A stretch of 43,175 nucleotides of DNA, from positions 1 through 43,175 of the forward strand of contig JAISZL010000090.1 in NCBI GenBank assembly GCA_031269245.1, in the 5' to 3' direction. Made by a program: the position numbers and the translations under genes. The stretch comes from Synergistaceae bacterium (lineage in GTDB: Bacteria > Synergistota > Synergistia > Synergistales > Synergistaceae). The notes under the pieces were generated by a model. The model saw nothing but the letters and a program-made list of their open reading frames with translations. It was not told the DNA's origin and did no database searches. This document shows, in pieces, positions 14,334 to 34,487 of the stretch; position 1 is the first letter of the stretch, and the number at the start of each line of letters is the position of its first letter.

Positions 14334-14570
14334 TAAACGCCGATTTTTATTATTTTGAAGGCGTTGCTCCTTTCGCAAAATTTTGCAAAAAAGCACAAAT
14401 TTTTACAATACGTTGCATGGGTGTTTGAATATACTATGAATACCGATCATAGCGTTTAAGCAATTTCACCTTGCCTTTTTGTTTGTACCTTACACGACAT
14501 TTAAAAAATGCTGGTTCACCACTACCATAAAAGTGGAGGCTGTTTAATTCGACAGTGCAGGAGGTCTGAC

Positions 14571-15467
14571 ATGGGTAAAATAGTTGACGTGCTCAAAACT
14601 GGTAAGATCTTGGTATCGGACGGCGCTTGGGGGACGTTCCTCTACGAGAAGGGGATGAAGGCGGGGGAGTGTCCCGACGCGTGGTCGGTCAACCGCTTCG
14701 ACGACGTAGTCGACATCGCCAAGAGCTACGCTGACGCCGGCGCCGACATGGTGGAGGCCAACAGCTTCGGCGCGAGCTACTACAAGCTGGAACACTTCGG
14801 TCTTCAGGACAGGGCGGCGGAGATCAACGAGTACGCCGCGCGCGCGTCCCGCAAGGGCGCCGGCGACAAGTACGTCATCGCGTCGATCGGCCCCACCGGC
14901 AAACTCCTGGTCACCGAGGAGGTTACGGAGGAGGATCTGTACGAGGCGTTCAAGGTCCAGGCCGTGGCCCTCGAAAAGGGCGGGGCCGACGCGGTCTGCA
15001 TCGAGACGATGAGCGACGCCGGCGAGGCCTGCTGCGCCATCAGGGCGACGAAGGAGAACACCAAACTCGAGATCATCACGACGTTCAGCTTCGACAAAAC
15101 CGTGCAGGGCACCTACAGGACGATGATGGGGCTGTCCCCGGAGGACGCGGTCAAGGCGTCCCTCGATGCGGGATCTGACATCGTCGGCACGAACTGCGGC
15201 AACGGCTTCGAGAGGATGATCGAGATCGTGAGTGAGATGAAATCCGCGTATCCCGACGCTCTGATACTCGTGCACGCGAACGCTGGGCTTCCGCAGAACG
15301 TAGACGGCAAGGACTTCTTCCCCGAGACGCCTGAGATGATGGCGGCGCAGGTGGATGATCTCATCAAGGCCGGCGCCAACATCATCGGCGGTTGCTGCGG
15401 GTCGACTCCGGCGCACATCGCGGCCATCAAGAAGGTCGTGGACGCGCACAACAAGAAGGCGGCGTAA
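14571..15467 (+). CDS. Homocysteine S-methyltransferase family protein (MetH N-domain type)
   Basis: A 298-residue, single-domain TIM-barrel zinc methyltransferase of the Hcy-binding family. Blocks include LVSDGAWGTFLYEKGM near the N-terminus, EANSFGASYYKLE, the zinc ligand segment GTNCGNG (about residue 205), and the second pair in IGGCCGSTPAHI near the C-terminus. The ATG at 14571 has GCAGGAGGT before it; an in-frame ATG at 14508 is not preceded by a ribosome site. It has no pterin, B12 or reactivation domain, so it is not a full methionine synthase. As first gene of the CODH/ACS operon it may move methyl groups between homocysteine or another thiol and a corrinoid protein such as CFeSP. 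That role is inference. Confidence 0.88.
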   Translation: MGKIVDVLKTGKILVSDGAWGTFLYEKGMKAGECPDAWSVNRFDDVVDIAKSYADAGADMVEANSFGASYYKLEHFGLQDRAAEINEYAARASRKGAGDKYVIASIGPTGKLLVTEEVTEEDLYEAFKVQAVALEKGGADAVCIETMSDAGEACCAIRATKENTKLEIITTFSFDKTVQGTYRTMMGLSPEDAVKASLDAGSDIVGTNCGNGFERMIEIVSEMKSAYPDALILVHANAGLPQNVDGKDFFPETPEMMAAQVDDLIKAGANIIGGCCGSTPAHIAAIKKVVDAHNKKAA

Positions 15468-16730: not shown

Positions 16731-17501
16731 TTGAAGATAGCCGTTTCAGGAAAAGGCGGGGTGGGGAAGTCCACCGTGGCGTCAATCATAGCCCTGATGA
16801 AGGCCGAGGCCGGAGACAGGGTCCTGGCGCTTGACGCCGATCCGGACGCCAACCTGGCGTCCTCCTTGGGGATACCTCATCGCGAGCAGCGGCGCATAGT
16901 CACGATATCTCAGCAGATAGAGCTGATCGAGGAGAGGACCGGTGCCAAAGTGGGGCAGTACGGGCAGGTGTTCAGGCTGAACCCGGACGTGGCCGACGTG
17001 GCCGATCACTATGCCTACAAGCACAGGGGCGTGTCGCTCCTCGTGCTCGGGGCGGTGAAGTCCGGCGGAGGCGGTTGCGCCTGCCCGGAGAACACCTTCA
17101 TTCGCGCTCTCGTCAACGACCTCGTCCTCTTCAAAGGGGACACGCTGATAATGGACATGGAGGCCGGCATCGAGCACCTGGGGCGCGCCACGTCCCAGGG
17201 CGTCGACGCGATGCTGGTCGTCGTCGAGCCGGGGCAGAGGTCAGTGGACTGCGCCCTCCTGGTGGAGCGGATGTCGCACGAGATCAGGGTCAAGAGGGTC
17301 CTGTTCATGGTGAACAAGGTCGCCTGCGACGCTGACAGAAGCTTCATCAGGGAGGCGCTCCCCAAGAGGGAGATACTGGCCTTCCTGCCGTACTCCGGCG
17401 AGATGAGAAACGCCGACCGCGACGGAGCGTCCCCGTATGACTTCCTGGACGACGAAACTCGCGGTCAATATTACGAAATAATAAAGAGGTTGGAGACATG
17501 A
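16731..17501 (+). CDS. cooC: CooC-type nickel-insertion ATPase, copy 1
   Basis: A 256-residue SIMIBI-class ATPase that helps load nickel into CO dehydrogenase or acetyl-CoA synthase. The deviant Walker A is SGKGGVGKST at residues 6-15, the switch I region is DADPDANLASSLG, and the metal-binding CxC is C116/C118 in GGGGCACPENTF, where CooC dimers bind one nickel. The start is a TTG at 16731 with GGCGAGGG upstream. Its ATGA overlap with the second CooC gene implies coupled translation. Two copies beside one CODH and one ACS suggest that one serves each enzyme (CooC and AcsF roles), but sequence alone does not say which. Confidence 0.92.
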   Translation: MKIAVSGKGGVGKSTVASIIALMKAEAGDRVLALDADPDANLASSLGIPHREQRRIVTISQQIELIEERTGAKVGQYGQVFRLNPDVADVADHYAYKHRGVSLLVLGAVKSGGGGCACPENTFIRALVNDLVLFKGDTLIMDMEAGIEHLGRATSQGVDAMLVVVEPGQRSVDCALLVERMSHEIRVKRVLFMVNKVACDADRSFIREALPKREILAFLPYSGEMRNADRDGASPYDFLDDETRGQYYEIIKRLET

Positions 17502-18250
17502 GCTGTCTGTTCGCTTTATCGGGGAAGGGCGGCGTGGGCAAGACGACGCTGGCCGGCCTGTTTGTCCGCGGTTTGAGGGAGATCGGGAGGAAGCCGATCC
17601 TCGCGATCGACGCCGACCCGAACAGCTGCCTCGCCGACATGCTGGGTGTGCGAGTGCGATTTACCATTGGATCGGCGCGCGAGACGGTCCGCGACGAAGC
17701 GGAGGCTCAGAAGATATCCAAGCAGGAGCTGCTCAGGATGAAAATCGCTCAGGGCCTGGTCGAGAGCAACGGCTTCGACCTCATCTCCATGGGTCGCCCG
17801 GAGGGGCCTGGCTGCTACTGCTACGCAAACAACGTTCTCAAGTCGGCAATAAAGGAGCTTTCCGATCAATACCCCTACGTGGTCTTGGACAACGAGGCGG
17901 GCCTGGAGAACCTCTCCCGCAGAATAGTTCAGTCGGTCGACGTGCTGACGCTGGTCTCCGACGCGTCCAACGCCGGCATGAACACGCTGGAGAGGCTCTA
18001 TGGCCTGGCGCGCGAGATGGGCGTGGGGTTCAGGAAGCTCGTTTTGCTGGTAAACCGAACACGAGGGGGTGAATTGCCTGAATCTGCCGCCCGTGTTCAG
18101 AAGAACACCGGGGCGCGGAATATGCTGGCCCTGCCGTACGACGAGGAGATAGCGACCCTGGCCGAGGAGTCGAGGCCAGTCTGGGATGTGAGTGACGAAA
18201 ACCCGATCTATCGTAAAATATTGGAGCTTGTCAGGGAGACCAGCGGATAA
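17498..18250 (+). CDS. cooC: CooC-type nickel-insertion ATPase, copy 2
   Basis: A 250-residue paralogue of the previous gene. Walker A is SGKGGVGKTT near residue 9, followed by DADPNSCLADMLG, and the CxC metal site is C106/C108 in GPGCYCYANN. The sequence NEAGLENLSRR matches the switch II DxEAG(I/L)E.L region of CooC proteins. It differs from copy 1 in most positions, so the duplication is old. It ends 72 bases before the CODH gene. It probably loads nickel into CODH or ACS, as AcsF (CooC2) does for ACS in acetogens; the division of labour is inferred. Confidence 0.92.
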   Translation: MSCLFALSGKGGVGKTTLAGLFVRGLREIGRKPILAIDADPNSCLADMLGVRVRFTIGSARETVRDEAEAQKISKQELLRMKIAQGLVESNGFDLISMGRPEGPGCYCYANNVLKSAIKELSDQYPYVVLDNEAGLENLSRRIVQSVDVLTLVSDASNAGMNTLERLYGLAREMGVGFRKLVLLVNRTRGGELPESAARVQKNTGARNMLALPYDEEIATLAEESRPVWDVSDENPIYRKILELVRETSG

Positions 18251-18322: not shown

Positions 18323-20266
18323 ATGGCTGACGCAAGCGCGTATTCAAACAAGGCGGACGACGTCGCATCCGTGGAGATGCTGGAGAAAGCTGGGCTCGAC
18401 TGTATCGAGACATGCTTTGATCGCTATGAGACTCAAAAAAACCACTGCAAGTTCGGAAAAGAGGGCACGTGCTGCAAGATATGCTACATGGGTCCCTGCC
18501 GCATCACGCCCAAGTCACCGAAGGGCGTGTGCGGGGCGGACGCCGACACCATCGCGGCCCGCAACTTCCTGCGCGAGGTGACGGGCGGCACCGCGTCCCA
18601 CTCAGATCATGGGCGCCACGTCGCCCTCCTGCTCAAGGAGATAGCGCACGGCAAGGAAGTCGGATATGAGGTCAAGGACCCGCAGGCCGTCGTGGAGATA
18701 GCCAAACTTTATGGCATCGAGACGGAGGACCGGGAGATGATTGATGTGCTCCGCGATCTCTCCGACATATTCATCGGAGACTTCACCTCGCAGGAGGAGA
18801 CGATACAGACCGTGTCGCTGGCTCCGCAGAAGACCAGGACGACGTGGGCGGGCCTTGGCGTGATGCCCCAGGGGATAGACCGGATGTGCGTCGAGGCCAT
18901 GCACCGCACCCACATGGGAGTCGATCACGACTACAAGAACCTGCTCATGCACGCTTTCCGCCAGTCCATAGCCAACGGCTGGGGTGGGTCGCGCATAGCG
19001 TCGATGGCGTCCGACATACTGTTCGGAACGCCGCGGGCGCTGCGCACCGAGGTCAACCTCGGCATATTGAACGAGAAGAACGTGAATATATTGGTCCACG
19101 GACATGAGCCGACGCTATCCGACATGATAGCGATTGCGGTCAAGGACCCGGAGATAACAGAGTACGCGAAAGCCGCGGGCGCGGAGGGCGTGACGGTCGG
19201 CGGCATATGCTGCACGGCGAACGAGATACTCATGCGCCACGGCATACCGATCGCCGGCAACTTCCTGCAGCAGGAACTGGCGCTCGTGACCGGAGCGGTG
19301 GAGATGATGATCGTCGACGTGCAGTGCATCATGCCGTCGCTGCCGGTCGTGGCCGAGCACTACCACACGAAGATAGTGGGCACCACGGAGATGGCCAAGA
19401 CGATAGGCGCCGAGGCGTTCGATTTCAGCGAGGCGCGCGCGTTCGAGTGCGCGAAAGAGCTGGTCAAGATGGCCATCGACAACTTCAAGAACCGTAAGCC
19501 GGATCTCGTCAAGATACCCGATAAGAAGGAGACGGTCATCGCTGGCTTCAGCGTCCGCGAGATCAAGTACATGCTCGGCGGGTCGTTCCGCGCGTCGTTC
19601 CGCCCGCTCAACGACGCCATAATACAGAACAGGATCAAGGGCGTCGTAGGTATAGTCGGCTGCAACAACCCCAAATTCAAGACGGATTGGTACTGCAACG
19701 AGCTGGTGAAGGAGCTCGTGAAGAACAACGTCCTGGTCGTAGAGACGGGATGCTGCGCCATAGCCTCCGGCAAGGACGGCAAGCTGACGCCGGAGACGGC
19801 GCTAGAGTACGCGGGCCACGGCCTAAAGGAGGTCTGCGAGGCTGTGGGCATCCCGCCGGTACTGCACATGGGCAGCTGCGTGGACAACACGAGAATACTC
19901 GAGGCATGCACCGAGATAGTCAAGGAGGGCGGTTTGGGCGACTCCATAGCCGGACTTCCGGCCGCCGGCGTCTGCCCGGAACTCATGAGCGAGAAGGCGG
20001 TTTCCATAAGCTGCTACTGCGTGGCGACTGGCCTTGACGTCTTCATCGGCCACCCGTTCCACATCACCGGAGCCCAGAACGTCTACAAGTTCCTGACCGA
20101 GGACGTGCGCGAGATGTTTGGCGCCTCCATGCACTTCGTCGAGGACCCCATCGAGGCGGCGAAGCAGATCGTCGAGGTCCTGGATGCGAAGCGGGAGAAG
20201 CTGGGCATCAACAAGAAGTACGAGCGCAAGCTCCTGGAGCAGAAGGACAGGAGGGAGGTGGCGTAA
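18323..20266 (+). CDS. acsA: Carbon monoxide dehydrogenase, nickel catalytic subunit (ACS partner)
   Basis: Ni-Fe CODH of 647 residues that interconverts CO2 and CO and passes CO to acetyl-CoA synthase. N-terminal cysteines 42, 50, 51, 54, 59 and 70 supply the D and B [4Fe-4S] clusters. C-cluster ligands are present: the HGHEP motif (259-261), C296 in GGICC, C335 in DVQCIM, C447 in VGCNNP, C477/478 in TGCCAI, and C519 in GSCVDN. Lys558 in SEKAVSI matches the proton-transfer lysine. The length matches other bacterial CooS/AcsA proteins. The ATG at 18323 follows a GGGGGAA stretch. It abuts the acsB fusion gene with no gap, so both act as the CODH/ACS complex. No residue known to be essential is missing. 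Confidence 0.97.
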   Translation: MADASAYSNKADDVASVEMLEKAGLDCIETCFDRYETQKNHCKFGKEGTCCKICYMGPCRITPKSPKGVCGADADTIAARNFLREVTGGTASHSDHGRHVALLLKEIAHGKEVGYEVKDPQAVVEIAKLYGIETEDREMIDVLRDLSDIFIGDFTSQEETIQTVSLAPQKTRTTWAGLGVMPQGIDRMCVEAMHRTHMGVDHDYKNLLMHAFRQSIANGWGGSRIASMASDILFGTPRALRTEVNLGILNEKNVNILVHGHEPTLSDMIAIAVKDPEITEYAKAAGAEGVTVGGICCTANEILMRHGIPIAGNFLQQELALVTGAVEMMIVDVQCIMPSLPVVAEHYHTKIVGTTEMAKTIGAEAFDFSEARAFECAKELVKMAIDNFKNRKPDLVKIPDKKETVIAGFSVREIKYMLGGSFRASFRPLNDAIIQNRIKGVVGIVGCNNPKFKTDWYCNELVKELVKNNVLVVETGCCAIASGKDGKLTPETALEYAGHGLKEVCEAVGIPPVLHMGSCVDNTRILEACTEIVKEGGLGDSIAGLPAAGVCPELMSEKAVSISCYCVATGLDVFIGHPFHITGAQNVYKFLTEDVREMFGASMHFVEDPIEAAKQIVEVLDAKREKLGINKKYERKLLEQKDRREVA

Positions 20267-23200
20267 ATGTCGAAGATAATCTGTTCAAGCGCCATCAACG
20301 GAGCGATCGAGTGGGTGAGGAAGGCAGACGCCGCCGTCACCGAGGCCATAAGGGAGAAGGGGCCGGAGCAGGCCATCGGATTCCCCAGCACGAACTATTA
20401 CCTTCCTATTATATATTCCTTCACCGGCAGGAAGATGGAGACCCTGCAGGACCTGCAGGGCATCGTGGAGTACTCCAGGAACCTGCTTCCCGCGCGCGTC
20501 CTGGACAGCAACTGGCTCCCGTACCTCGGGCAGACGCTTGACGCGGGCGCTGCCGCTCTCTTCGCCTGCGAGGCTATAGAGGCCGTGAAGTACATCATGG
20601 GGCCAAACCCGGTCGACGGGATCTGGCTGGGAGCGGCTAACGACGTCATCATGAGGGAGCGCGGCGTCGAGTTCGTCGACGGAAGCGCCCCCGGGTTCGC
20701 CGCCGTAACCGGGCGCGCCCCGGACAACGAGACGGCTGTCAAGATAGCGAAGGAGCTTCAGCAGAAGAACCTCTACGTCTTCATGGGCGGCAGCACCGGC
20801 GGGCTCCAGTTCGCCGAGCAGCTCGCGGCCGAGGGTGTTCAGCTCGGCTGGGAGACGCGCCTCGTCCCCTTTGGCAGGGACGTGTCGGCGCTGGTCTACG
20901 CTCTCGGCTTCGCGAGCAGGACGGCGCTCTCCTTCGGAGGCGTCAAGCCGGGGGACTACGCGGCGAACCTGAAGTACAACAAGAACAGGGTCTTCGCGTT
21001 CGTCCTGGCCTTCGACGAGGTCGACGAGGAGAAGTACTCCGCCGCGGCCGGCGCAATAAACTACGGCTTCCCCGTTTTGGCGGACACCGCCATCCCGCAG
21101 ATACTCCCGACGGGCGTCTGCACATACGAGCACGTGGTGTCGAGCGTGCCGTACGACACGATGGTCGAGAAGGCGCTGGAGGTGCGCGGCTGCAAGATCA
21201 AGGTCACGCACGTCCCGGTACCTGTCGCGTACGGCGCGGCGTTCGAGGGCGAGCGCATTCGCAAGGAGGACACCTACGTCGAGTTCGGCGGAAACAAGTC
21301 CTCCGCCTTCGAGTTCGTGACAAGCGTCGACTTCGACGACATAAACGACAACGAGTTCGAGCTGATAGGTAAGGACGTGGACGAGGTCGAGCCCGGCTCC
21401 GTCCTGCCGCTGGCCATATGGGTCGAGGTCGCGGGGCGCAAGATGCAGCCCGACTTCGAGCCGATCCTCGAGCGCCAGATACACCACCTGGTGAACGGCG
21501 CGGAGGGGATATGGCACATGGGGCAGCGCGACATCGTGTGGACTCGAATCTCCAACGACGGCTTTAAGAAGGGCCTGCGCATCAAGGACTACGGCAGGAT
21601 AATTCACGCCAAGTTCCACGACGACTATCCCGCCATAGTGGACAAGGTGAAGGTCACCCTCGTCACCGATCCTGACGAGGTCGAGAAGCGCCAGAAGATA
21701 GCGCGCGAGACCTACGCCTTCCGAAACAAGCGAGTCGAGGCCATGACCGACGAGTCGGTGGATATATTCTACTCCTGCCTGCTCTGCCAGGCGTTCGCCC
21801 CGAACCACGTCTGCGTCATCACGCCGGAGCGCTTGGGCCTCTGCGGCGCCTATAACTGGCTCGACGGCAAGGCGGCTTACGAGATCGACGAGACTGGGGG
21901 CAACCAGCCGGTCAAGAAGGGCGAGTGCCTCGACCCGGTCAAGGGCATCTGGACCGGCGTCAACGAATACGCCTACACGAACAGCCACAAGACCGTCACC
22001 GGTTTCTGCGCGTACTCCATCATGGACCGGCCTATGACGAGCTGCGGCTGCTTCGAGGCGATATGCGCGTACCTCCCCGAGTGCAACGGCGTGATGGTGG
22101 TCAATCGCGAGTTCCTGGGCGACACGCCGGTCGGCATGTCCTTCTCGGCCCTCGCCGGCAACGTCGGCGGCGGCGCTCAGACCCCGGGGTTCATGGGTGT
22201 CGGTAAGGTGTTCTTAACGAGCCGTAAGTTCCTCTACGCCGAGGGCGGCTATGCGCGTCTCGTCTGGATGCCGAAGGAGTTGAAGGACGCCGTGCGCGAG
22301 GACATGGAGAAACGGCTGAAGGAGCAGAACCTCGAGGGCTTCCTCGACAAGATAGCGGACGAGACGATCGCCACCACCGCCGAAGAGGTTAGGGCGTTCA
22401 TGGAGAAGGTCGGGCATCCGGCGCTTACGATGGCCGACATGGCGGAGTTCGCTCAGAGCGAAGAGGAGGAAGAAGGCCTGCCGCCGCTTCCCACGAGCGT
22501 GGAGGACGAGCAGGAGGAAACGGAGGAGGAAGAGGAAGTGAGAGCAGTCATCGACGAGTCCAGCCTGGAGGAACTGAAGACAAAGCTCATTGCCGACGTG
22601 AGCGCTGCGGTGGTGAAGGAGTTAGTCGGTGGCATCGTCAACGCCCTTTCGGTGCAGTTCCTCGGAGGCTCCGGCACTATAGCCGTCGGAGGCCCGGCGC
22701 AGCCCGAGGCCGCTCCCGCCAAGCCCGCCGCGCCCGCCAAGACGCCGGGCAAAAAGATAGTCGGCGGCATCAAATCATTCGCTGTGCGCCACGACAAGTG
22801 CGAGTCCCCGGTCTGGGAGGTCAAGCTGGGCAACTCCAAGGAGGAGGGAGGCACGCGCAGAACCTGCGTGGTAGGAGGCGAGACGGCGAAGCCATTCCAT
22901 CTCTGGGAGGGCAGCATGCCCCACAAGCCGCTCGTCGCGCTCGAGGTGCTGGACATCGTGACCGATAAATACCCGCCCGTCCTGGCGGACATCTACGGCA
23001 GGGACCTGCTCAACGATCCGGTCGAGATGGCCAAGGTGTGCGTCGGCAAGTACGGGGCGGACCTCCTCAGCGTGTCGCTCCTCGGCACCCACCCCGAGAA
23101 GGGGGACAAATCGGCGGACGAGGCGGTCAAGCTGGTCGGCTCGATACTGCAGGCGGTCGACGTGCCGCTCATCATCACGGGCCACTCCAACTACGACAAG

Positions 23201-23746
23201 CACAACGAGGTCTTGAAGGCCGTCGCCCAGACGTTCGCGGGGGAGAACCTGCTCCTCAACTGGGTCGAGCAGGACAACTACAAGACTTTGGCCGGAGCCG
23301 CCATGGCGTACGGGCACTCGCTCGTGGCGCAGTCGCCGATCGATGTCAACATAGCGAAGCAGATGGTCATACTGCTCACGAACATGGACTTCCCGAAGGA
23401 CCGCATTGTGGTGGATCCGACCACGAGCGCGCTGGGCTACGGAGTCGAGTACACGTACTCCGTCATGGAGCGCATCCGCGTGACCGCTCTGGACGGCGAG
23501 CCCATGCTCTGCGCCCCGATGGTGGTATCGACGGGAGTTGAGACGAGCAAGATAAAGGAAGCGAAGGCGCCCGAGGCCGACTTCCCGGCCTGGGGCAAGG
23601 TGGAGGATCGCATCGCGGCCCTCGAGTTCGTCGCGGCGCAGTCCTACCTGTACGCCGGCGCCGACCTCCTGATCATGTACCATCCGGAAGCGGCGGTTCA
23701 GATTAAAAACACCATCGACGAACTGATGGACGGGGCAAGGGGGTAA
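20267..23746 (+). CDS. acsB: Acetyl-CoA synthase fused to CFeSP small subunit (AcsB-AcsD)
   Basis: A single frame of 1159 residues. Residues 1 to about 730 are bacterial acetyl-CoA synthase: A-cluster cysteines C504, C507, C516 and C526 with the exact CX2CX8CX9C spacing, and the distal nickel site C593-G-C595 in SCGCFE. An acidic linker (about 731-760), a helical segment (about 762-800) and an Ala/Pro linker follow. Residues about 830-1159 match AcsD/CdhD, the small corrinoid/iron-sulfur protein subunit, with KPLVALEVLDI, LLLNWVEQDNYK, the VDPTTSALGYGVEYTYS barrel strand and MYHPEAAVQI. ACS makes acetyl-CoA from CO, CoA and a methyl group delivered by CFeSP. The two are normally separate genes. 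The fusion would tether donor and acceptor. A GTG at 22538 with G-rich sequence before it could allow separate AcsD to be made as well. Confidence 0.93.
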   Translation: MSKIICSSAINGAIEWVRKADAAVTEAIREKGPEQAIGFPSTNYYLPIIYSFTGRKMETLQDLQGIVEYSRNLLPARVLDSNWLPYLGQTLDAGAAALFACEAIEAVKYIMGPNPVDGIWLGAANDVIMRERGVEFVDGSAPGFAAVTGRAPDNETAVKIAKELQQKNLYVFMGGSTGGLQFAEQLAAEGVQLGWETRLVPFGRDVSALVYALGFASRTALSFGGVKPGDYAANLKYNKNRVFAFVLAFDEVDEEKYSAAAGAINYGFPVLADTAIPQILPTGVCTYEHVVSSVPYDTMVEKALEVRGCKIKVTHVPVPVAYGAAFEGERIRKEDTYVEFGGNKSSAFEFVTSVDFDDINDNEFELIGKDVDEVEPGSVLPLAIWVEVAGRKMQPDFEPILERQIHHLVNGAEGIWHMGQRDIVWTRISNDGFKKGLRIKDYGRIIHAKFHDDYPAIVDKVKVTLVTDPDEVEKRQKIARETYAFRNKRVEAMTDESVDIFYSCLLCQAFAPNHVCVITPERLGLCGAYNWLDGKAAYEIDETGGNQPVKKGECLDPVKGIWTGVNEYAYTNSHKTVTGFCAYSIMDRPMTSCGCFEAICAYLPECNGVMVVNREFLGDTPVGMSFSALAGNVGGGAQTPGFMGVGKVFLTSRKFLYAEGGYARLVWMPKELKDAVREDMEKRLKEQNLEGFLDKIADETIATTAEEVRAFMEKVGHPALTMADMAEFAQSEEEEEGLPPLPTSVEDEQEETEEEEEVRAVIDESSLEELKTKLIADVSAAVVKELVGGIVNALSVQFLGGSGTIAVGGPAQPEAAPAKPAAPAKTPGKKIVGGIKSFAVRHDKCESPVWEVKLGNSKEEGGTRRTCVVGGETAKPFHLWEGSMPHKPLVALEVLDIVTDKYPPVLADIYGRDLLNDPVEMAKVCVGKYGADLLSVSLLGTHPEKGDKSADEAVKLVGSILQAVDVPLIITGHSNYDKHNEVLKAVAQTFAGENLLLNWVEQDNYKTLAGAAMAYGHSLVAQSPIDVNIAKQMVILLTNMDFPKDRIVVDPTTSALGYGVEYTYSVMERIRVTALDGEPMLCAPMVVSTGVETSKIKEAKAPEADFPAWGKVEDRIAALEFVAAQSYLYAGADLLIMYHPEAAVQIKNTIDELMDGARG

Positions 23747-27928: not shown

Positions 27929-29251
27929 ATGGAGCTTGAAAACCGCAGGTGGTACGAATTCGATTTGAAGCTCGCAGTCGAATGCTCGAACTCATACTCC
28001 GCCTCCACGGGGCTCGGGTGCACTGTGCTGGGCGCGGACGGGGAAATCCTGCACGAGGTCGGCTACAACTGTTCGCGCTGCGCCGTCTGCTCCGAGCTCG
28101 GCATCGACAAGGCCAGCTGCGCGAAGGTCCACGCGTATGGTACGAGCGAGGCCGAGCGATTCGGGGGGAAGTACGTCTACTTCTGCCCGATAGGCCTGAA
28201 CTGCTTCGTCTCACCGATAGTGGGGCAGAGGGCGGGCGCCGCTAAGGTCACGGCCGGACCGTTCCGCATGATCGACATGGACGACTACATAGCGTACGAC
28301 TTGAAAAACCTGCACGGCATGGACAGAGGCAAGATCGACGACCTCCTTCCCGTGTTGCACGAGATACCGTACGTGGCGCCCGGCAGGGTCAACTCCCTCT
28401 CGACGCTGCTCTTCATGGCGGTGGGCTTTATGAACAACGTCTCGTCCGCTAACAGGATGCTTGACAACCAGACCTCAGACTACATCCAGGGGCAGATAAA
28501 CGACTACATAATGAGGCTCAAGAGCGGCGCTAATCAGGAGGATCTGCAGCAGTATCCTTTCGAGACCGAGCGCGAGCTCTTAGCGAGTGTGACCGACTCG
28601 AACAAGCCGAAGGCACAGAGGCTTTTGAACGAGCTGCTCGGGCACATCTTCTTCGCATCGGGGGGGGATTTTTCGAGGATAAAGACCCGCGTTTACGAAC
28701 TGCTGACGATGCTCTCGCGCGCCGCGGTCGACGCCGGAGCGTCTCCCGAGTACACGTTCCAGCTCACCCACGACTTCTTCACGAAGTCCCAGAACATCGC
28801 TAATATCGACAACCTCTGCTTCAACCTGACCAAGATCACCAACCAGTTCATCGACTGCGTCTTCGCGTTCTCGGACGTGAAGAACGTAAACGTGATCCAC
28901 AGGGCGCTGCAGTACATGCGGCAGAATTACCACAACAAGGTGTCCTTGAACGCTGTCGCGCAGGTAGTCGACCTGTCCCCGTCGTATTTCAGCAAGGTGT
29001 TTAAAAAGGAGATGGGCTGCAACTTCAACACGTACATGAACACCGTCAGGATCGAGAAGAGCATAGCGCTGCTGCGGTACGACAATTTGACGCTCTCCAA
29101 TATCGCGACGGCGGTCGGCTTCGAGGACCAGAGTTACTTCACCAAGGTATTCAAACGCATCACCGGCGTCTCCCCTCACCGCTTCATGAAGACGCGGGGC
29201 AGGGCGCAGGCGGACGACCAGTCCCAGGGCGCTGACAAACTTCCCGCTTGA
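27929..29251 (+). CDS. PocR-domain AraC-family transcriptional regulator
   Basis: A 440-residue cytoplasmic DNA-binding regulator. Residues about 10-170 form a PocR sensor domain, with YNCSRCAVCSELG and FCPIGLNCFVSPI as typical blocks; PocR domains bind small ligands, such as propanediol in cobalamin/propanediol gene control. The C-terminal about 110 residues hold two AraC helix-turn-helix units (VSLNAVAQVVDLSPSYFSKV and LTLSNIATAVGFEDQSYFTK). The gene sits alone between the CODH/ACS operon and rnf and has its own promoter. It likely controls one or both in response to a C1 or related metabolite; neither target nor ligand is shown by sequence. Confidence 0.88.
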   Translation: MELENRRWYEFDLKLAVECSNSYSASTGLGCTVLGADGEILHEVGYNCSRCAVCSELGIDKASCAKVHAYGTSEAERFGGKYVYFCPIGLNCFVSPIVGQRAGAAKVTAGPFRMIDMDDYIAYDLKNLHGMDRGKIDDLLPVLHEIPYVAPGRVNSLSTLLFMAVGFMNNVSSANRMLDNQTSDYIQGQINDYIMRLKSGANQEDLQQYPFETERELLASVTDSNKPKAQRLLNELLGHIFFASGGDFSRIKTRVYELLTMLSRAAVDAGASPEYTFQLTHDFFTKSQNIANIDNLCFNLTKITNQFIDCVFAFSDVKNVNVIHRALQYMRQNYHNKVSLNAVAQVVDLSPSYFSKVFKKEMGCNFNTYMNTVRIEKSIALLRYDNLTLSNIATAVGFEDQSYFTKVFKRITGVSPHRFMKTRGRAQADDQSQGADKLPA

Positions 29252-29371: not shown

Positions 29372-30715
29372 ATGACATTGCCAACGTTTAAGGGCGGAGT
29401 GCATCCGCCGGACGGGAAATCTCTGACGGAGTCCAAGGAAATAGAGGTGCTTCAGCCCGTCAAGGACTTGGTCTATCCGATGTCGCAGCATCTCGGGCCG
29501 CCGTGCTCCCCAATCGTCAAGAAGGGCGACCGCGTCCTGGCGGGCATGAAGATAGCCGACTCGGACACGTTTGTGTCGGCCCCGATCATGGCGAGCGTGT
29601 CGGGCATGGTAAAGGACGTGGGCATGAGGATGACCATATCCGGGGGCATGGAGACGTGCGTCGTGGTGGAGAACGACGGGCGGTACGAGCACTCCTCCGA
29701 GCTGCTGCCCCATCCCGACTACGAGTCCCTCGACCCGAAGGAGCTTATCAGGATAATAAGGGAGGCTGGCATCGTCGGCATGGGCGGCGCCACGTTCCCG
29801 ACGCACGTCAAGCTCTCGCCCCCTCCGGACAGGAAGATCAAGTGGATCATCGTGAACGGCGCTGAGTGCGAGCCTTTCCTCAACTGCGACAACAGGCTCA
29901 TGCTGGAGCACCCGGAGCCGATAATCGGCGGGCTCGAGATATGCATGAGGATTTTCCCGGATGCGGAGGGCATAATCGCGATCGAGAACAACAAGCCGGA
30001 GAGCATCAAGCGGATGGAGGGCGAGCTGTCGGAGCGCGGCGGCAGGATCCGTGTCGTGCCTCACGCGGTCAAGTACCCGCAGGGCGCGGAGAAGATGCTC
30101 ATTTATTCGATCACCGGACAGGAGATACCGCCCGGCGCGCTGCCGGCCGACGTGGGTTGCATCGTCTTCAACGTCAGCACCATGGAGCACATCTGGCTCG
30201 CCGTCGTCGAGGGCATCCCAGTAATAGAGCGCGTCGTCTCCGTGACGGGGGACGTTATAGCGAACCCAAAGAACATATCCGCTCCCATAGGGACGTGCAT
30301 CCGCGAGCTGATCGACTGCGCGGGAGGCTTCACCGAGGAGCCGGCCAAGGTTCTGTCCGGCGGCCCGATGATGGGCATCTCCATGAGGTCGATAGACGTG
30401 CCGACTGTGAAGGGCACGTCCGGGATACTGGCACTCTCCGCGCGCTCTTCGATCTGCCCGCCGGAGTCGAACTGCATCCGCTGCGGCAGGTGCATAGAGG
30501 GATGTCCGATGGGCCTCGTGCCGACGAACCTGGACAAGCTCGTCAGGTTAAGGGAGTACTCGGAGTTCGAGTCGGGCGGCGGCATGAACTGCATCGAGTG
30601 CGGAAGCTGCACCTACGCCTGCCCCGCCTTTCGCCATCTCACGCAGAGCTGCCGGGACGGCAAGGCCGGGGTAATGGCCGCCCGCAGAAGAGAACAGGCT
30701 TTGAAGAAGGGGTGA
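29372..30715 (+). CDS. rnfC: Rnf complex subunit C
   Basis: 447-residue peripheral subunit of the Rnf ferredoxin:NAD+ oxidoreductase. It has the N-terminal FKGGVHPPDGK motif, a flavin/NADH site near GGATFPTHVK, and two [4Fe-4S] motifs, CIRCGRCIEGCP from residue 368 and CIECGSCTYACP from residue 407. It starts the order rnfCDGEAB, as in Acetobacterium and many clostridia. Rnf moves electrons from reduced ferredoxin to NAD+ and pumps Na+ or H+; in this organism it can couple to the CODH/ACS system next door. No consensus promoter is clear in the 120 bases upstream. Confidence 0.96.
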   Translation: MTLPTFKGGVHPPDGKSLTESKEIEVLQPVKDLVYPMSQHLGPPCSPIVKKGDRVLAGMKIADSDTFVSAPIMASVSGMVKDVGMRMTISGGMETCVVVENDGRYEHSSELLPHPDYESLDPKELIRIIREAGIVGMGGATFPTHVKLSPPPDRKIKWIIVNGAECEPFLNCDNRLMLEHPEPIIGGLEICMRIFPDAEGIIAIENNKPESIKRMEGELSERGGRIRVVPHAVKYPQGAEKMLIYSITGQEIPPGALPADVGCIVFNVSTMEHIWLAVVEGIPVIERVVSVTGDVIANPKNISAPIGTCIRELIDCAGGFTEEPAKVLSGGPMMGISMRSIDVPTVKGTSGILALSARSSICPPESNCIRCGRCIEGCPMGLVPTNLDKLVRLREYSEFESGGGMNCIECGSCTYACPAFRHLTQSCRDGKAGVMAARRREQALKKG

Positions 30716-30722
30716 TGAGAAG

Positions 30723-31667
30723 ATGGACCGTCTCCTCGTAGTGGCGAGCTCGCCTCACATAAGATCGGATATGAGCTCGCGAAAGATAATGGCGCTCGTC
30801 ATAATGTCGCTGATCCCCGCCGGGATCGCGGGAGCGTACTTCCTCGGCGTCCGGTCGATATTGGTGACGGCTGTCGCGGTGGTGTCGTGTGTCGCCGCGG
30901 AAGCCCTGTGGCAGAGGGCGGCGCGCCAGCCCGTCACGGTCTCGGACCTGTCGTCCGCGTTGACCGGCTTGCTCCTGGCCTACAATCTCCCGCCGGCGAT
31001 ACCGCTTTGGATGCCGGCAATCGGCGGTTTTTTCGCCATCATCGTGGCGAAGCAGTTATTCGGCGGGCTGGGGCAGAACATAATAAACCCCGCGCTCGCC
31101 GGCAGAGCGATGATGCTCATATGCTGGCCGGTCGCGATGACGACGTGGACGATTGACGGCGTCAGCGGCCCGACGGCGCTGGCCATCATCAAGGGTGCGG
31201 AGTCCGTGTCGGCGGAGCAAGGGTTGCCGACGCTTTTAGACGCGCTGATCGGCAGAATGGGCGGTTGCATAGGCGAGACTTCGGCGATAGCCCTGCTTGC
31301 CGGCGGCGTTTTTCTCATAGCTCGCGGGATCATCTCCTGGAGGATACCCGTCATCTACATAGCCACGGTCGCCGCGGCGTCCGTCGTCTTCGGGCGCGCG
31401 GCCGGTCCGCTGTATGAGGTGATGTCGGGAGGGCTGATGCTGGGTGCCTTCTTCATGGCGACTGATTACGCCACGTCGCCGCTCACGCCGAAGGGGCAGA
31501 TCATATTCGCCGTCGGCTGCGGCGTTATAGCGGCCCTCATACGGGCCTACGGCGGATACCCGGAGGGAGTGTCCTACTCCATCCTCATCATGAACCTCAC
31601 GGTGCCGATAATCGACAGGGCCACGGCCCCCAAAATCTTCGGGGAGGTGAAGAAGCATGGCGCATGA
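30723..31667 (+). CDS. rnfD: Rnf complex subunit D
   Basis: 314-residue integral membrane subunit with about nine predicted helices. It contains the covalent FMN-binding threonine motif as SGPT (in DGVSGPTALA), where most RnfD proteins have SGAT, and the FMATDYATSPLTPKGQ block typical of RnfD/NqrB. It sits seven bases after rnfC and overlaps rnfG by eleven bases. It carries electrons and takes part in ion transport. Confidence 0.95.
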   Translation: MDRLLVVASSPHIRSDMSSRKIMALVIMSLIPAGIAGAYFLGVRSILVTAVAVVSCVAAEALWQRAARQPVTVSDLSSALTGLLLAYNLPPAIPLWMPAIGGFFAIIVAKQLFGGLGQNIINPALAGRAMMLICWPVAMTTWTIDGVSGPTALAIIKGAESVSAEQGLPTLLDALIGRMGGCIGETSAIALLAGGVFLIARGIISWRIPVIYIATVAAASVVFGRAAGPLYEVMSGGLMLGAFFMATDYATSPLTPKGQIIFAVGCGVIAALIRAYGGYPEGVSYSILIMNLTVPIIDRATAPKIFGEVKKHGA

Positions 31668-32289
31668 ATCCGCAAGCGCGCAGAATTCTCCCAACGCGCC
31701 GGAGGGCTCTGGGAGCATGAAAAAAATAATCCACCTCGGAGTGGTGCTCTTTACGGTCACCGCCATAACCGGCCTGATACTCGGTGCGGTGAATGACATA
31801 ACGGCGGAGCCCATACGGCGAACCCAGGCGCGCCTCAAGGCGGAGGCATTGGCCGCGGCGTTGCCGGAGGCGGAGGCGTTCTCGGCGGTCGATCTGTCGT
31901 CCAAGGGGGGGAGCGCCATCATAAGGGACGTCCAAGCTGGGTCCGCCGGCGGGAAAACCGTGGGCCACTGCATCACTGTGGCCCCGTCGGGCTACGCTGG
32001 GGCGATAGAGATAGTGGTGGGCATAAACGAGTCCGGGGGATTGAGGGCCATCCGCATACTCAGCCAGAGCGAGACGCCCGGCCTCGGGGCGAAGGCTCCT
32101 CTCCCCGAATTCTCCGGACAGTTCGCCGGCAAGGACGCTGAGCGCCTCGTCGTGGTGAAGAGCAAGCCATCGGCGCCCGATCAGATTCAGGCGATTTCGG
32201 GGGCCACGATCACGTCGGACGCCGTCACGAGTGGCGTGAACAGCGCTCTCGAATACTGGAGAGACAACCTGAAGTCTCAAGGGAGGTAA
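31657..32289 (+). CDS. rnfG: Rnf complex subunit G
   Basis: 210 residues with one N-terminal transmembrane helix (KKIIHLGVVLFTVTAITGLI) after a polar extension of about 20 residues, and a periplasmic FMN-binding domain. ETPGLGAK and the flavinylation motif SGATITSDAV mark the covalent FMN threonine. It overlaps rnfD, so synthesis is coupled. The polar N-terminal extension is longer than usual; an ATG at its end (MKKIIHLG) is a possible alternative start. Confidence 0.95.
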   Translation: MAHESASAQNSPNAPEGSGSMKKIIHLGVVLFTVTAITGLILGAVNDITAEPIRRTQARLKAEALAAALPEAEAFSAVDLSSKGGSAIIRDVQAGSAGGKTVGHCITVAPSGYAGAIEIVVGINESGGLRAIRILSQSETPGLGAKAPLPEFSGQFAGKDAERLVVVKSKPSAPDQIQAISGATITSDAVTSGVNSALEYWRDNLKSQGR

Positions 32290-32294
32290 CAGCG

Positions 32295-33050
32295 GTGAAC
32301 AACCCATTCAAGATCATCAAAAACGGCATAGTCACTGAAAATCCTACGCTGGTGCAGTGCATCGGCCTGTGCCCGACGCTCGCGGTCTCGACGAGCGCTG
32401 TGAACGGCATCGGCATGGGCATCGCCGCGACGGCCGTCCTGATCGGCTCGAACATGGCGGTGTCGGCCATCCGTAAGTTCGTCCCGGACGAGATACGGAT
32501 ACCGATATTCATAGTCGTCATCGCCGGGTTCGTAACGGTGGTGCAGCTTCTGATCGCCGGCTTCGCCCCCGCGCTGGACAGGGCGCTCGGCATATTCATA
32601 CCCCTCATCGTGGTGAATTGCATAATACTGGCGAGGTCGGAGGCTTACGCGTTCAAAAACGGCGTAGTGGACTCGTTCTTCGACGGCATCGGCATGGGCC
32701 TCGGCTTCACGATAGCGCTCACTGCGATGGGCGCGTTCAGGGAGATACTGGGCAACGGCACGGTGTTCGACATAAAGATGACTCCAGAGGGCTTTCAGCC
32801 GGCGCTCCTGATCATACTGGCTCCCGGCGGCTTTATGACGCTGGGGATATTCATGGCCCTCTTCAGGCAGTATCAGTACTGGTCGGCGGAGCGCGCCGGG
32901 GCGGCGTCTCCGGTGATCCAGAACGGAGAGTGCGCCGCGTGCGGCGCGGCTCCGCTGTGCGGAGCGTTAGGGTCCGCGCCGGACGGTCCTGGGGACCGCG
33001 GGCCGCGTAAAAATGGCTCAACGGCCCCGGCCGCGGGGGGCGAAGCGTGA
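32295..33050 (+). CDS. rnfE: Rnf complex subunit E
   Basis: 251-residue membrane subunit of the NqrD/RnfE family with about six helices. The core is recognisable by VQCIGLCPTLAVSTSA, IPLIVVNCIILAR and DGIGMGLGFTIAL. The start is a GTG with GGGAGG upstream. The C-terminus carries a tail of about 45 residues with a Cys-rich start (NGECAACGAAPLCGALG), longer than in E. coli RsxE. It overlaps rnfA by four bases (ATGA). Confidence 0.95.
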   Translation: MNNPFKIIKNGIVTENPTLVQCIGLCPTLAVSTSAVNGIGMGIAATAVLIGSNMAVSAIRKFVPDEIRIPIFIVVIAGFVTVVQLLIAGFAPALDRALGIFIPLIVVNCIILARSEAYAFKNGVVDSFFDGIGMGLGFTIALTAMGAFREILGNGTVFDIKMTPEGFQPALLIILAPGGFMTLGIFMALFRQYQYWSAERAGAASPVIQNGECAACGAAPLCGALGSAPDGPGDRGPRKNGSTAPAAGGEA

Positions 33051-33631
33051 TGAGCGTGCTGCTGCTGTTCATAGACGCGATATTCGTCCACAACATACTG
33101 CTCTCCCGATTCCTGGGGTGCTGCCCGTTTCTCGGGGTTTCGACGAAGAGCGACACGGCCAAGGGCATGGGGGTGGCGGTCATATTCGTCACCGTTTTGG
33201 CGGCGGTGGTCACGTGGCTCGTCTACAACATGGTGCTCGTGCCGCTTCATCTCGAGTACCTCTACACGCTGTCGTTCATCCTCGTGATCGCGGCCCTGGT
33301 CCAGTTCGTGGAGCTGGCCTTGAAGAAGATAAACCCGGTGCTCTACAAGTCGCTCGGCATATTCCTGCCGCTCATCACGACGAACTGCGCCGTGCTGGGG
33401 GTGGCGGTCATCAACATGAAGGAGCACCCCGACTCGTTGCTGGAGGCCTCGGTGAACGCCCTCGGCGCGTCGATTGGTTTTCTTTTGGCCATAATCCTCA
33501 TGGCCGGCATCCGCGAGCGGATAGAGCGCAACACCAACATCCCGCGCTGCCTGCACGGGCTGCCAATCGCGCTCGTAACCGCCGGCCTGATGTCGATAGC
33601 CTTTATGGGCTTCAGCGGCATCATCAAGTAG
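33047..33631 (+). CDS. rnfA: Rnf complex subunit A
   Basis: 194-residue membrane subunit with six predicted helices. Family markers are HNILLSRFLGCCPFLGVS, LQ/LVQFVELALKK and ITTNCAVLGVA, which include the cysteines that, with RnfE, form an intramembrane [2Fe-2S] centre in Rnf and Nqr. Start ATG overlaps the rnfE stop. Confidence 0.96.
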   Translation: MMSVLLLFIDAIFVHNILLSRFLGCCPFLGVSTKSDTAKGMGVAVIFVTVLAAVVTWLVYNMVLVPLHLEYLYTLSFILVIAALVQFVELALKKINPVLYKSLGIFLPLITTNCAVLGVAVINMKEHPDSLLEASVNALGASIGFLLAIILMAGIRERIERNTNIPRCLHGLPIALVTAGLMSIAFMGFSGIIK

Positions 33632-33659
33632 AATGGCACTCTGAGGAGGGGGGAGGAAC

Positions 33660-34487
33660 ATGATCACTTTCGCTGGAATGGCATATCCCGTGGCGGTGCT
33701 TGGCGCGCTCGGGCTCGCGTTCGGCGCGCTCCTGGCGTTCGCGTCGATAAAGTTCTTCGTGGCGGTGGACGACAGGGTGGCGAAGATAAGGGAGCTGCTG
33801 CCCGGCGCCAACTGCGGCGGCTGCGGTTACCCCGGCTGCGACGGCTACGCTGACGGCGTCGTGAACTCCGGCGCCAAGACGAACCTCTGCGCCGCCGGAG
33901 GCCCGTCGCTGGCCTCGGGCATAGCGTCGATAATGGGTGTGGAGGGCGAGGCCGCGGTGCCGATGCGAGTCTTCCTCAAGTGCAAGGGCTCGCCGGACTT
34001 CTCCGTCCGCAACGCCGAGTACATAGGCGTGCGCGACTGCCGCTCCGCCGCCATAGTCCCCGGCGGCTCGCCGAACTCATGCCCATTCGGGTGCATCGGG
34101 TTCGGCACGTGCGCCAAGGTCTGCGTCTTCGGCGCGCTCTCCATAGTGAACGGGCTCGTCCGCGTGAACCCGAACAAGTGCGTGGGTTGCGGGACGTGCG
34201 CGGCCACCTGCCCGAAATCCGTGCTGAAGCTCATACCCAGGTCGTCCGAGATACAGGTGAGCTGCAACTCCAACTGGAGGGGCCCGGACGTCAAGAGGGT
34301 CTGCTCCGCGGGTTGCATAGGGTGCGGAATCTGCGTCAAGGCGTGTCAGGCGGGGGCGATAACGCTGAGCGCGAACCTGGCGTCGATCGACGGGACGAAG
34401 TGCACGAACTGCGGCGCGTGCGCGGCGAAGTGCCCGGCCAAGTGCATCGGGAGCGCGGCGCCGGAGGAGATGAGGAAGTCGGCGTAA
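33660..34487 (+). CDS. rnfB: Rnf complex subunit B
   Basis: 275-residue iron-sulfur subunit with one N-terminal membrane helix. The Fe4S4 domain NCGGCGYPGCDGYA...C begins near residue 51. Ferredoxin-type motifs follow: CPFGCIGFGTCAKVC, CVGCGTCAATCP, CIGCGICVKACQ and CTNCGACAAKCP. It probably accepts electrons from ferredoxin. AGGAGGGGGG lies just before the ATG. It is the last gene of the rnf operon, followed by a terminator. Confidence 0.96.
   Translation: MITFAGMAYPVAVLGALGLAFGALLAFASIKFFVAVDDRVAKIRELLPGANCGGCGYPGCDGYADGVVNSGAKTNLCAAGGPSLASGIASIMGVEGEAAVPMRVFLKCKGSPDFSVRNAEYIGVRDCRSAAIVPGGSPNSCPFGCIGFGTCAKVCVFGALSIVNGLVRVNPNKCVGCGTCAATCPKSVLKLIPRSSEIQVSCNSNWRGPDVKRVCSAGCIGCGICVKACQAGAITLSANLASIDGTKCTNCGACAAKCPAKCIGSAAPEEMRKSA

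Follow-up and report, generated by a model that had tools for sequence, protein, structure and literature searches.

Acetyl-CoA synthase fused in frame to the small subunit of the corrinoid iron-sulfur protein: a widespread variant of bacterial CO dehydrogenase/acetyl-CoA synthase

The fused protein and its linker

The window analysed here, a stretch of 43,175 nucleotides from contig JAISZL010000090.1 of a Synergistaceae bacterium (assembly GCA_031269245.1), carries an operon for CO dehydrogenase/acetyl-CoA synthase (CODH/ACS) in which acetyl-CoA synthase (AcsB, hereafter ACS) and AcsD, the small subunit of the corrinoid iron-sulfur protein (CFeSP), are encoded together. Positions 20267-23746 of the forward strand translate as a single open frame of 1159 amino acids without an internal stop. 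The initial annotation, made from the letters alone, had proposed precisely such an in-frame fusion, and the matches to Pfam, NCBIfam and PDB entries fall along the product in the domain order that it gave. The parts of the fusion are as follows.

20267..22441 (+): AcsB part (acetyl-CoA synthase), residues 1-725; NF040764, PDB 9fr0/7zkj, Foldseek 6ytt_D
21776..22051 (+): A-cluster ligand region (C504, C507, C516, C526, C593, G594, C595); positions read directly, invariant in 64 fusions
22442..22537 (+): acidic linker, residues 726-757; no alignment between phyla, dN/dS 0.42, pLDDT < 50 from residue 731
22538..22663 (+): linker helix, about residues 758-799; pattern match, predicted helix of low pLDDT, dN/dS 0.16
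22664..22792 (+): Ala/Pro-rich linker, residues 800-842; from the translation, disordered in the model
22793..23731 (+): AcsD part (CFeSP small subunit), residues 843-1155; NF003376, 4djd_D, Foldseek

Pfam places CODH_A_N (PF18537) at residues 23-110, CdhC (PF03598) at 318-472, ACS_CODH_B_C (PF19436) at 483-725 and CdhD at 851-1098. Over residues 10-725 the product scores 1037.8 bits against the alpha/beta ACS equivalog NF040764 (NCBIfam cut-off 800), and in the PDB residues 8-724 match the ACS of Carboxydothermus hydrogenoformans (9fr0/7zkj) with E 2e-216. The A-cluster set is complete, comprising the cubane cysteines 504, 507, 516 and 526 and the Ni-binding Cys-Gly-Cys motif C593-G594-C595; the six cysteines stand at the positions originally annotated and are invariant across the 64 fusions that were aligned. 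By these matches, the ACS part is a full-length A1-A2-A3 AcsB of the acetogen type and is predicted to act as an acetyl-CoA synthase. The AcsD part (residues 840-1154) scores 349.6 bits against the CdhD/AcsD subfamily NF003376 (NCBIfam cut-off 280) and 246 bits, under the cut-off of 430, against the stricter WLP_AcsD model NF040759; its match in the PDB is the Moorella CFeSP small subunit 4djd_D (E 1e-89). In Foldseek comparisons of the predicted model, the ACS part resembles 6ytt_D (TMt 0.89) and the AcsD part 4djd_D (TMt 0.92), so that by family score and structure match the latter is predicted to adopt the TIM-barrel fold of AcsD. Being a domain of the fusion, this AcsD has no stand-alone status; the gene for AcsC, the CFeSP large subunit, adjoins it. 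The host genome (2.34 Mb, 97% complete, a draft metagenome-type assembly in 98 contigs) contains no second match to the fusion query at E 0.001 or better, and its only two CdhD-family matches are the fusion itself and AcsC; the fusion is therefore the sole AcsB and the sole AcsD detected there.

The linker between the two parts measures 117 residues in the window and 65-221 (median 126) across the family, which, with the relatives described below, comprises 73 fusions; it is of low complexity and, the helix excepted, unalignable between phyla. The acidic segment, the helix and the Ala/Pro-rich segment noted at the outset are all present. AlphaFold models both end parts confidently, assigns pLDDT < 50 to residues 731-823 and predicts a helix at 764-799 at low confidence; with a pTM of 0.48 and a disordered linker, the placing of the ACS and AcsD parts relative to each other is undefined. 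The helix is amphipathic and conserved across most phyla, its family form, LTREIVxDIIxTLSEKFLG, being recognized by pattern in 57 of the 73 fusions and by eye in a few more. For six Synergistota sequences, the median ratio of nonsynonymous to synonymous substitution rates (dN/dS) is 0.05 in the ACS part, 0.42 in the acidic linker, 0.16 in the helix, 0.33 in the Ala/Pro-rich linker and 0.09 in the AcsD part, values that, for the linker, come from few codons with synonymous sites near saturation and are usable only as a ranking. The helix is more strongly constrained than its linker flanks. Unfused ACS proteins, of about 735-750 amino acids, have no C-terminal tail and unfused AcsD proteins have no N-terminal extension, so the linker is new sequence. 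Derivation from the N-terminal extension of archaeal CdhD was considered, given that NF003375 aligned over the linker of the window, but is not supported, the linkers of two other members being unmatched. In three members on the Acidobacteriota side (L076, L078 and L079), whose linkers have about 215 residues, the common helix gives way to another helical stretch that is conserved among them, ALQASTAMHLLHAGANMLLMQ.

Distribution and origin of the fusion

Could the fusion be a peculiarity, or even an artefact, of a single draft genome? Contigs of other genomes were scanned for matches and the best 80 loci taken; 72 of these, independently assembled, are further single-frame fusions, which together with the window makes 73. 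Because such a scan favours near relatives, samples of individual phyla were searched too. Fusion-bearing genomes belong to at least 13 named phyla and to several candidate phyla. The initial annotation stated that ACS and AcsD are separate proteins in known systems, as they are in those of the Moorella thermoacetica type; the fusion is not confined to this genome. Among the 188 Synergistota genomes sampled, a match was obtained in 13 and the fusion in 8; fused forms account for three to four of 19 in Spirochaetota, one of 15 in a class on the Clostridia side, about 11 of 19 on the Verrucomicrobiota side and two of six on the Acidobacteriota side. In the sample of the phylum of genome G199, on the Desulfobacterota side, the only full-length match among 200 genomes with a match is in the seed genome G199 itself. 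The metagenome-type draft assembly in 98 contigs might suggest an assembly error or a chimera, for which, however, we see practically no chance: the explanation is refuted by 72 other assemblies, unrelated in sample and phylum, that have this frame and whose fusions form one clade, and the Synergistota relatives of the fusion, at 81-90% identity, share the single frame. Candidates for true splits inside the fused clade were likewise dismissed, as the apparent break is a stretch of undetermined bases (N) in L066 and L138 and a shift of frame within the linker in L068.

Trees built from the ACS part group the fused proteins in a single clade (SH-aLRT 99) with one state change, whether or not further outgroups are added; in the first tree of the AcsD part, too, they make up one clade. 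The single clade in the ACS tree is explained by one ancient fusion followed by spread. The fusion is a real, single-origin and widespread architectural variant of bacterial CODH/ACS; by the trees, the joining took place about once, and the variant is now a stable one. It also cleanly marks a single lineage of an enzyme complex that is very old and has moved among many phyla. Synergistota hold both the fused type and separate ACS types of only 40-46% identity, which points to horizontal spread. In genome G147, of the same genus, the fused locus L090 coexists with a separate ACS/AcsD cluster (L109) that is only 40% identical; given the listed contamination of 7%, the two ACS types there may be a mixture.

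How could the two genes have become joined? The usual unfused gene orders are RACo-CooC-AcsD-CODH-ACS-AcsC and CODH-ACS-AcsC-RACo-CooC-AcsD. Locus L131 (genome G1351), with separate genes, has the order CooC-CODH-ACS-CooC-AcsD-AcsC-RACo and shares with the fused loci a gene similar to MesB, a core methionine synthase. The fusion probably arose by an operon rearrangement that placed acsD after acsB; removal of the intervening stretch from the L131 order would yield the fused order, a step that we infer from gene order. No report naming an ACS-AcsD fusion was found in the open-licence literature, although an earlier mention is possible.

The operon and the methyl partner

The neighbours of the fusion in the window, together with the more distant genes for formate-tetrahydrofolate (THF) ligase and Rnf, are the following.

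138-1814: formate-THF ligase
14508..15467 (+): homocysteine S-methyltransferase-like protein; PF02574, 214 bits
15392..16618 (+): MesB-like core methionine synthase; NF002119, E 2e-10, 87% identical to the L002 family member
16731..17501 (+): CooC/AcsF-type ATPase 1; CbiA/ParA-type P-loop, conserved neighbour
17498..18250 (+): CooC/AcsF-type ATPase 2; CbiA/ParA-type P-loop, conserved neighbour
18323..20266 (+): CO dehydrogenase AcsA/CooS, directly upstream of the fusion; TIGR01702, 638 bits
23753..25072 (+): AcsC, CFeSP large subunit, 6 bases downstream of the fusion; NF003195, 440 bits, N-terminal FeS domain PF04060
25175..27088 (+): RACo/AcsV, corrinoid reductive activator; PF14574, PF17651, and NF040756 at 616 bits, below the cut-off of 800
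29372-34487: Rnf genes

This order (homocysteine methyltransferase-like, MesB-like, CooC, CooC, CODH, ACS-AcsD, AcsC, RACo) is the conserved arrangement of the fused operon. Between this operon and the Rnf genes lies the gene for a regulator of the AraC type that has a PocR sensory domain (27929-29251, forward strand). The gene acsE, for the methyl-THF:CFeSP methyltransferase, is absent from the list, and this absence is general: a profile of AcsE made from unfused loci finds it in none of the 62 fused neighbourhoods longer than 11 kb, as against 35 of 48 unfused ones. The MesB-like family shows the opposite pattern, being present in 54 of the same 62 fused loci and, among the unfused, in L131 only, where acsE was not found in the stretch examined; the homocysteine S-methyltransferase-like gene occurs in 31 fused loci and in none of the 48 unfused ones. 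The MesB-like proteins conserve H245, C247, D266 and C342, with a spacing equal to that of the zinc ligands 214/216/235/311 of MesB (PMC7857596).

In this respect, the operon departs from the canonical acetogen Wood-Ljungdahl CODH/ACS cluster, which includes acsE. The AcsE profile found no acsE in the 65% of the host genome to which it was applied, and the only match to the pterin-binding family PF00809 in the genome is dihydropteroate synthase; however, a representative AcsE scores only 50 bits on that family, so genome-wide absence, in the one genome examined, is likely but not certain. The combination of a missing acsE and a MesB-like methionine synthase makes it doubtful which partner gives the methyl group or receives it, and in which direction the pathway runs. 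A tentative possibility, to which we would give less than even weight, is that the fused proteins represent a distinct AcsE-free class of CODH/ACS with a permanently tethered CFeSP, in which methyl groups would enter or leave CFeSP by another route, either acetyl-CoA cleavage that feeds MesB-type methionine synthesis or some other methyltransferase. If so, the fused clade would differ from a simple acetogenic Wood-Ljungdahl system. The link between the loss of acsE and the fusion suggests that the presence of acsB in such genomes is no proof of acetogenesis.

A tethered CFeSP and its counterparts in known systems

What might be gained by joining ACS to AcsD? We consider it probable, weighing all the evidence together, that the fusion provides a flexible tether that holds CFeSP on the CODH/ACS complex. 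The ACS part, bearing the A-cluster, would dock on CODH, and the flexible linker of about 117 residues, with its one conserved amphipathic helix, would join it to the AcsD barrel; AcsD would pair with the separately encoded AcsC, the carrier of the Fe-S cluster and the corrinoid, such that CFeSP stays on CODH/ACS. The tethered CFeSP could then swing inward to transfer the methyl group and outward for reductive reactivation by RACo, or, once swung out, could alternatively exchange methyl groups with another partner, the helix perhaps being a docking or self-association element. The product would presumably remain uncleaved in cells, and a linker acting in this way would, by a rough polymer estimate, create a local concentration of the order of 1 mM. 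It is known that ACS must open or swing for methylation, and in the extended, methylation-ready state an AlphaFold3 model has the small subunit of CFeSP resting against the N-terminal domain of ACS (PMC12289521); the acetyl-CoA decarbonylase/synthase (ACDS) complex of methanogens stably keeps CFeSP, and a flexible ACS C-terminal extension of about 75 amino acids is proposed to aid the CODH-CFeSP swing (PMC11474084). A long, flexible link between the ACS C-terminus and AcsD fits both lines of work. The initial annotation had already suggested a tether, and this stands as the reading best supported by the long flexible linker, the conserved helix and the lack of any other detected acsB or acsD; since only AcsD is fused and AcsC is a separate gene, the corrinoid would nevertheless be tethered indirectly, via the AcsC-AcsD pairing. 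The further suggestion that the fusion replaces a transient complex is unproven, considering that archaeal ACDS stably holds CFeSP without any fusion (PMC11474084) and that the methyl partner is in doubt.

Several observations weigh against a single ancient fusion that acts as a tether. With L131 added, the AcsD tree becomes ambiguous, with two changes and an unresolved node. The absence of acsE from the fused neighbourhoods makes the methyl route to the fused CFeSP uncertain. The common helix is missing or replaced in L035, L065, L073, L076, L078 and L079, and altogether absent from L035 and L065, which have the two shortest linkers (70 and 65 residues), so the fusion can do without it. Finally, translation might begin at a GTG at codon 758, which follows AGGAGG, and yield a free AcsD about 400 amino acids long. 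This last signal speaks for a reading in which AcsD is started internally, or the polypeptide is cleaved in a disordered linker accessible to proteases, to give separate ACS and AcsD and no tether in the cell. We regard such an outcome as quite improbable, because a site of this type, which arises from Glu codons, occurs in only three of the 72 relatives, a Met lies within the last 45 linker residues in only seven of the 73 fusions, and the single frame is kept across phyla with no convincing split.

A stronger rival, although still an unlikely one, holds that the fusion mainly ensures that ACS and AcsD are made in equal amounts and assemble together, with a linker that is a passive spacer and with ordinary kinetics of methyl transfer. 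The fast evolution of the linker flanks, the range of lengths and the loss of the helix from a few members agree with it; the conservation of the helix across most phyla would not be expected, and unfused clusters already keep acsB and acsD together. One could also see in this short amphipathic helix, flanked by Ala/Pro-rich stretches, a peptide that targets the complex to the inside of a bacterial-microcompartment (BMC) shell, and shell genes do occur in the host genome (contigs C42 and C86, away from the fusion operon) and in 15 of the 37 fused genomes tested. Yet the other 22 have no BMC match, some of them despite a well-conserved helix, and no BMC gene lies in the fusion operon, which makes this explanation highly implausible and disfavours targeting as the general role of the helix. 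The tether remains the preferred reading.

The way in which ACS and CFeSP come together to pass the methyl group is under active structural study. In 2024 their interaction was reportedly still called unseen, and a first structure of the complex (9fzy) is said to have appeared since. A natural, covalent 1:1 ACS-AcsD protein would offer a ready sample for cryo-electron microscopy and kinetics, and the fusion is a possible template for the engineering of gas fermentation.

Among known systems, those of Moorella thermoacetica, Carboxydothermus hydrogenoformans and Clostridium autoethanogenum (PDB 1oao, 7zkj, 6ytt, 4djd, 9fzy) have the same three-domain ACS with its A-cluster and the same AcsD fold, with CODH, AcsC and RACo encoded alongside as in the fused operon; in these bacteria, however, AcsD is a chain distinct from ACS, and CFeSP is methylated by AcsE, whereas the fused type has one chain and no acsE nearby. 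Fusion of AcsD to an enzyme of one-carbon metabolism by a long linker, in frame, has a counterpart in two Desulfobacterota-side genomes, in which methylene-THF reductase (PF02219) runs on into AcsD (L096:8602-11274 and L104:8928-11645, both on the reverse strand) through linkers that contain tetratricopeptide repeats or are rich in Ala, Glu and Lys; the partner there is not ACS, and the ACS proteins of these loci fall in the unfused part of the tree. Two other AcsD frames, also on the reverse strand (L105:11078-12709 and L110:10816-12387), have about 205-220 extra C-terminal residues with no other Pfam match. The ACDS of Methanosarcina, with its stably held CFeSP and flexible ACS C-terminal extension (PMC11474084), resembles the proposed tether, but binds CFeSP non-covalently, whereas the present protein has the A1 domain and a covalent link. 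Dehalococcoides mccartyi has AcsBCD and MesB (core-MetE) and, like the fused operons, no acsE, and its MesB-type core methionine synthase is thought to take the methyl group from CFeSP (PMC7005905, PMC7857596); unlike the D. mccartyi system, the fused operons include CODH and have AcsB fused to AcsD, and formate-THF ligase and Rnf genes lie nearby in the window.
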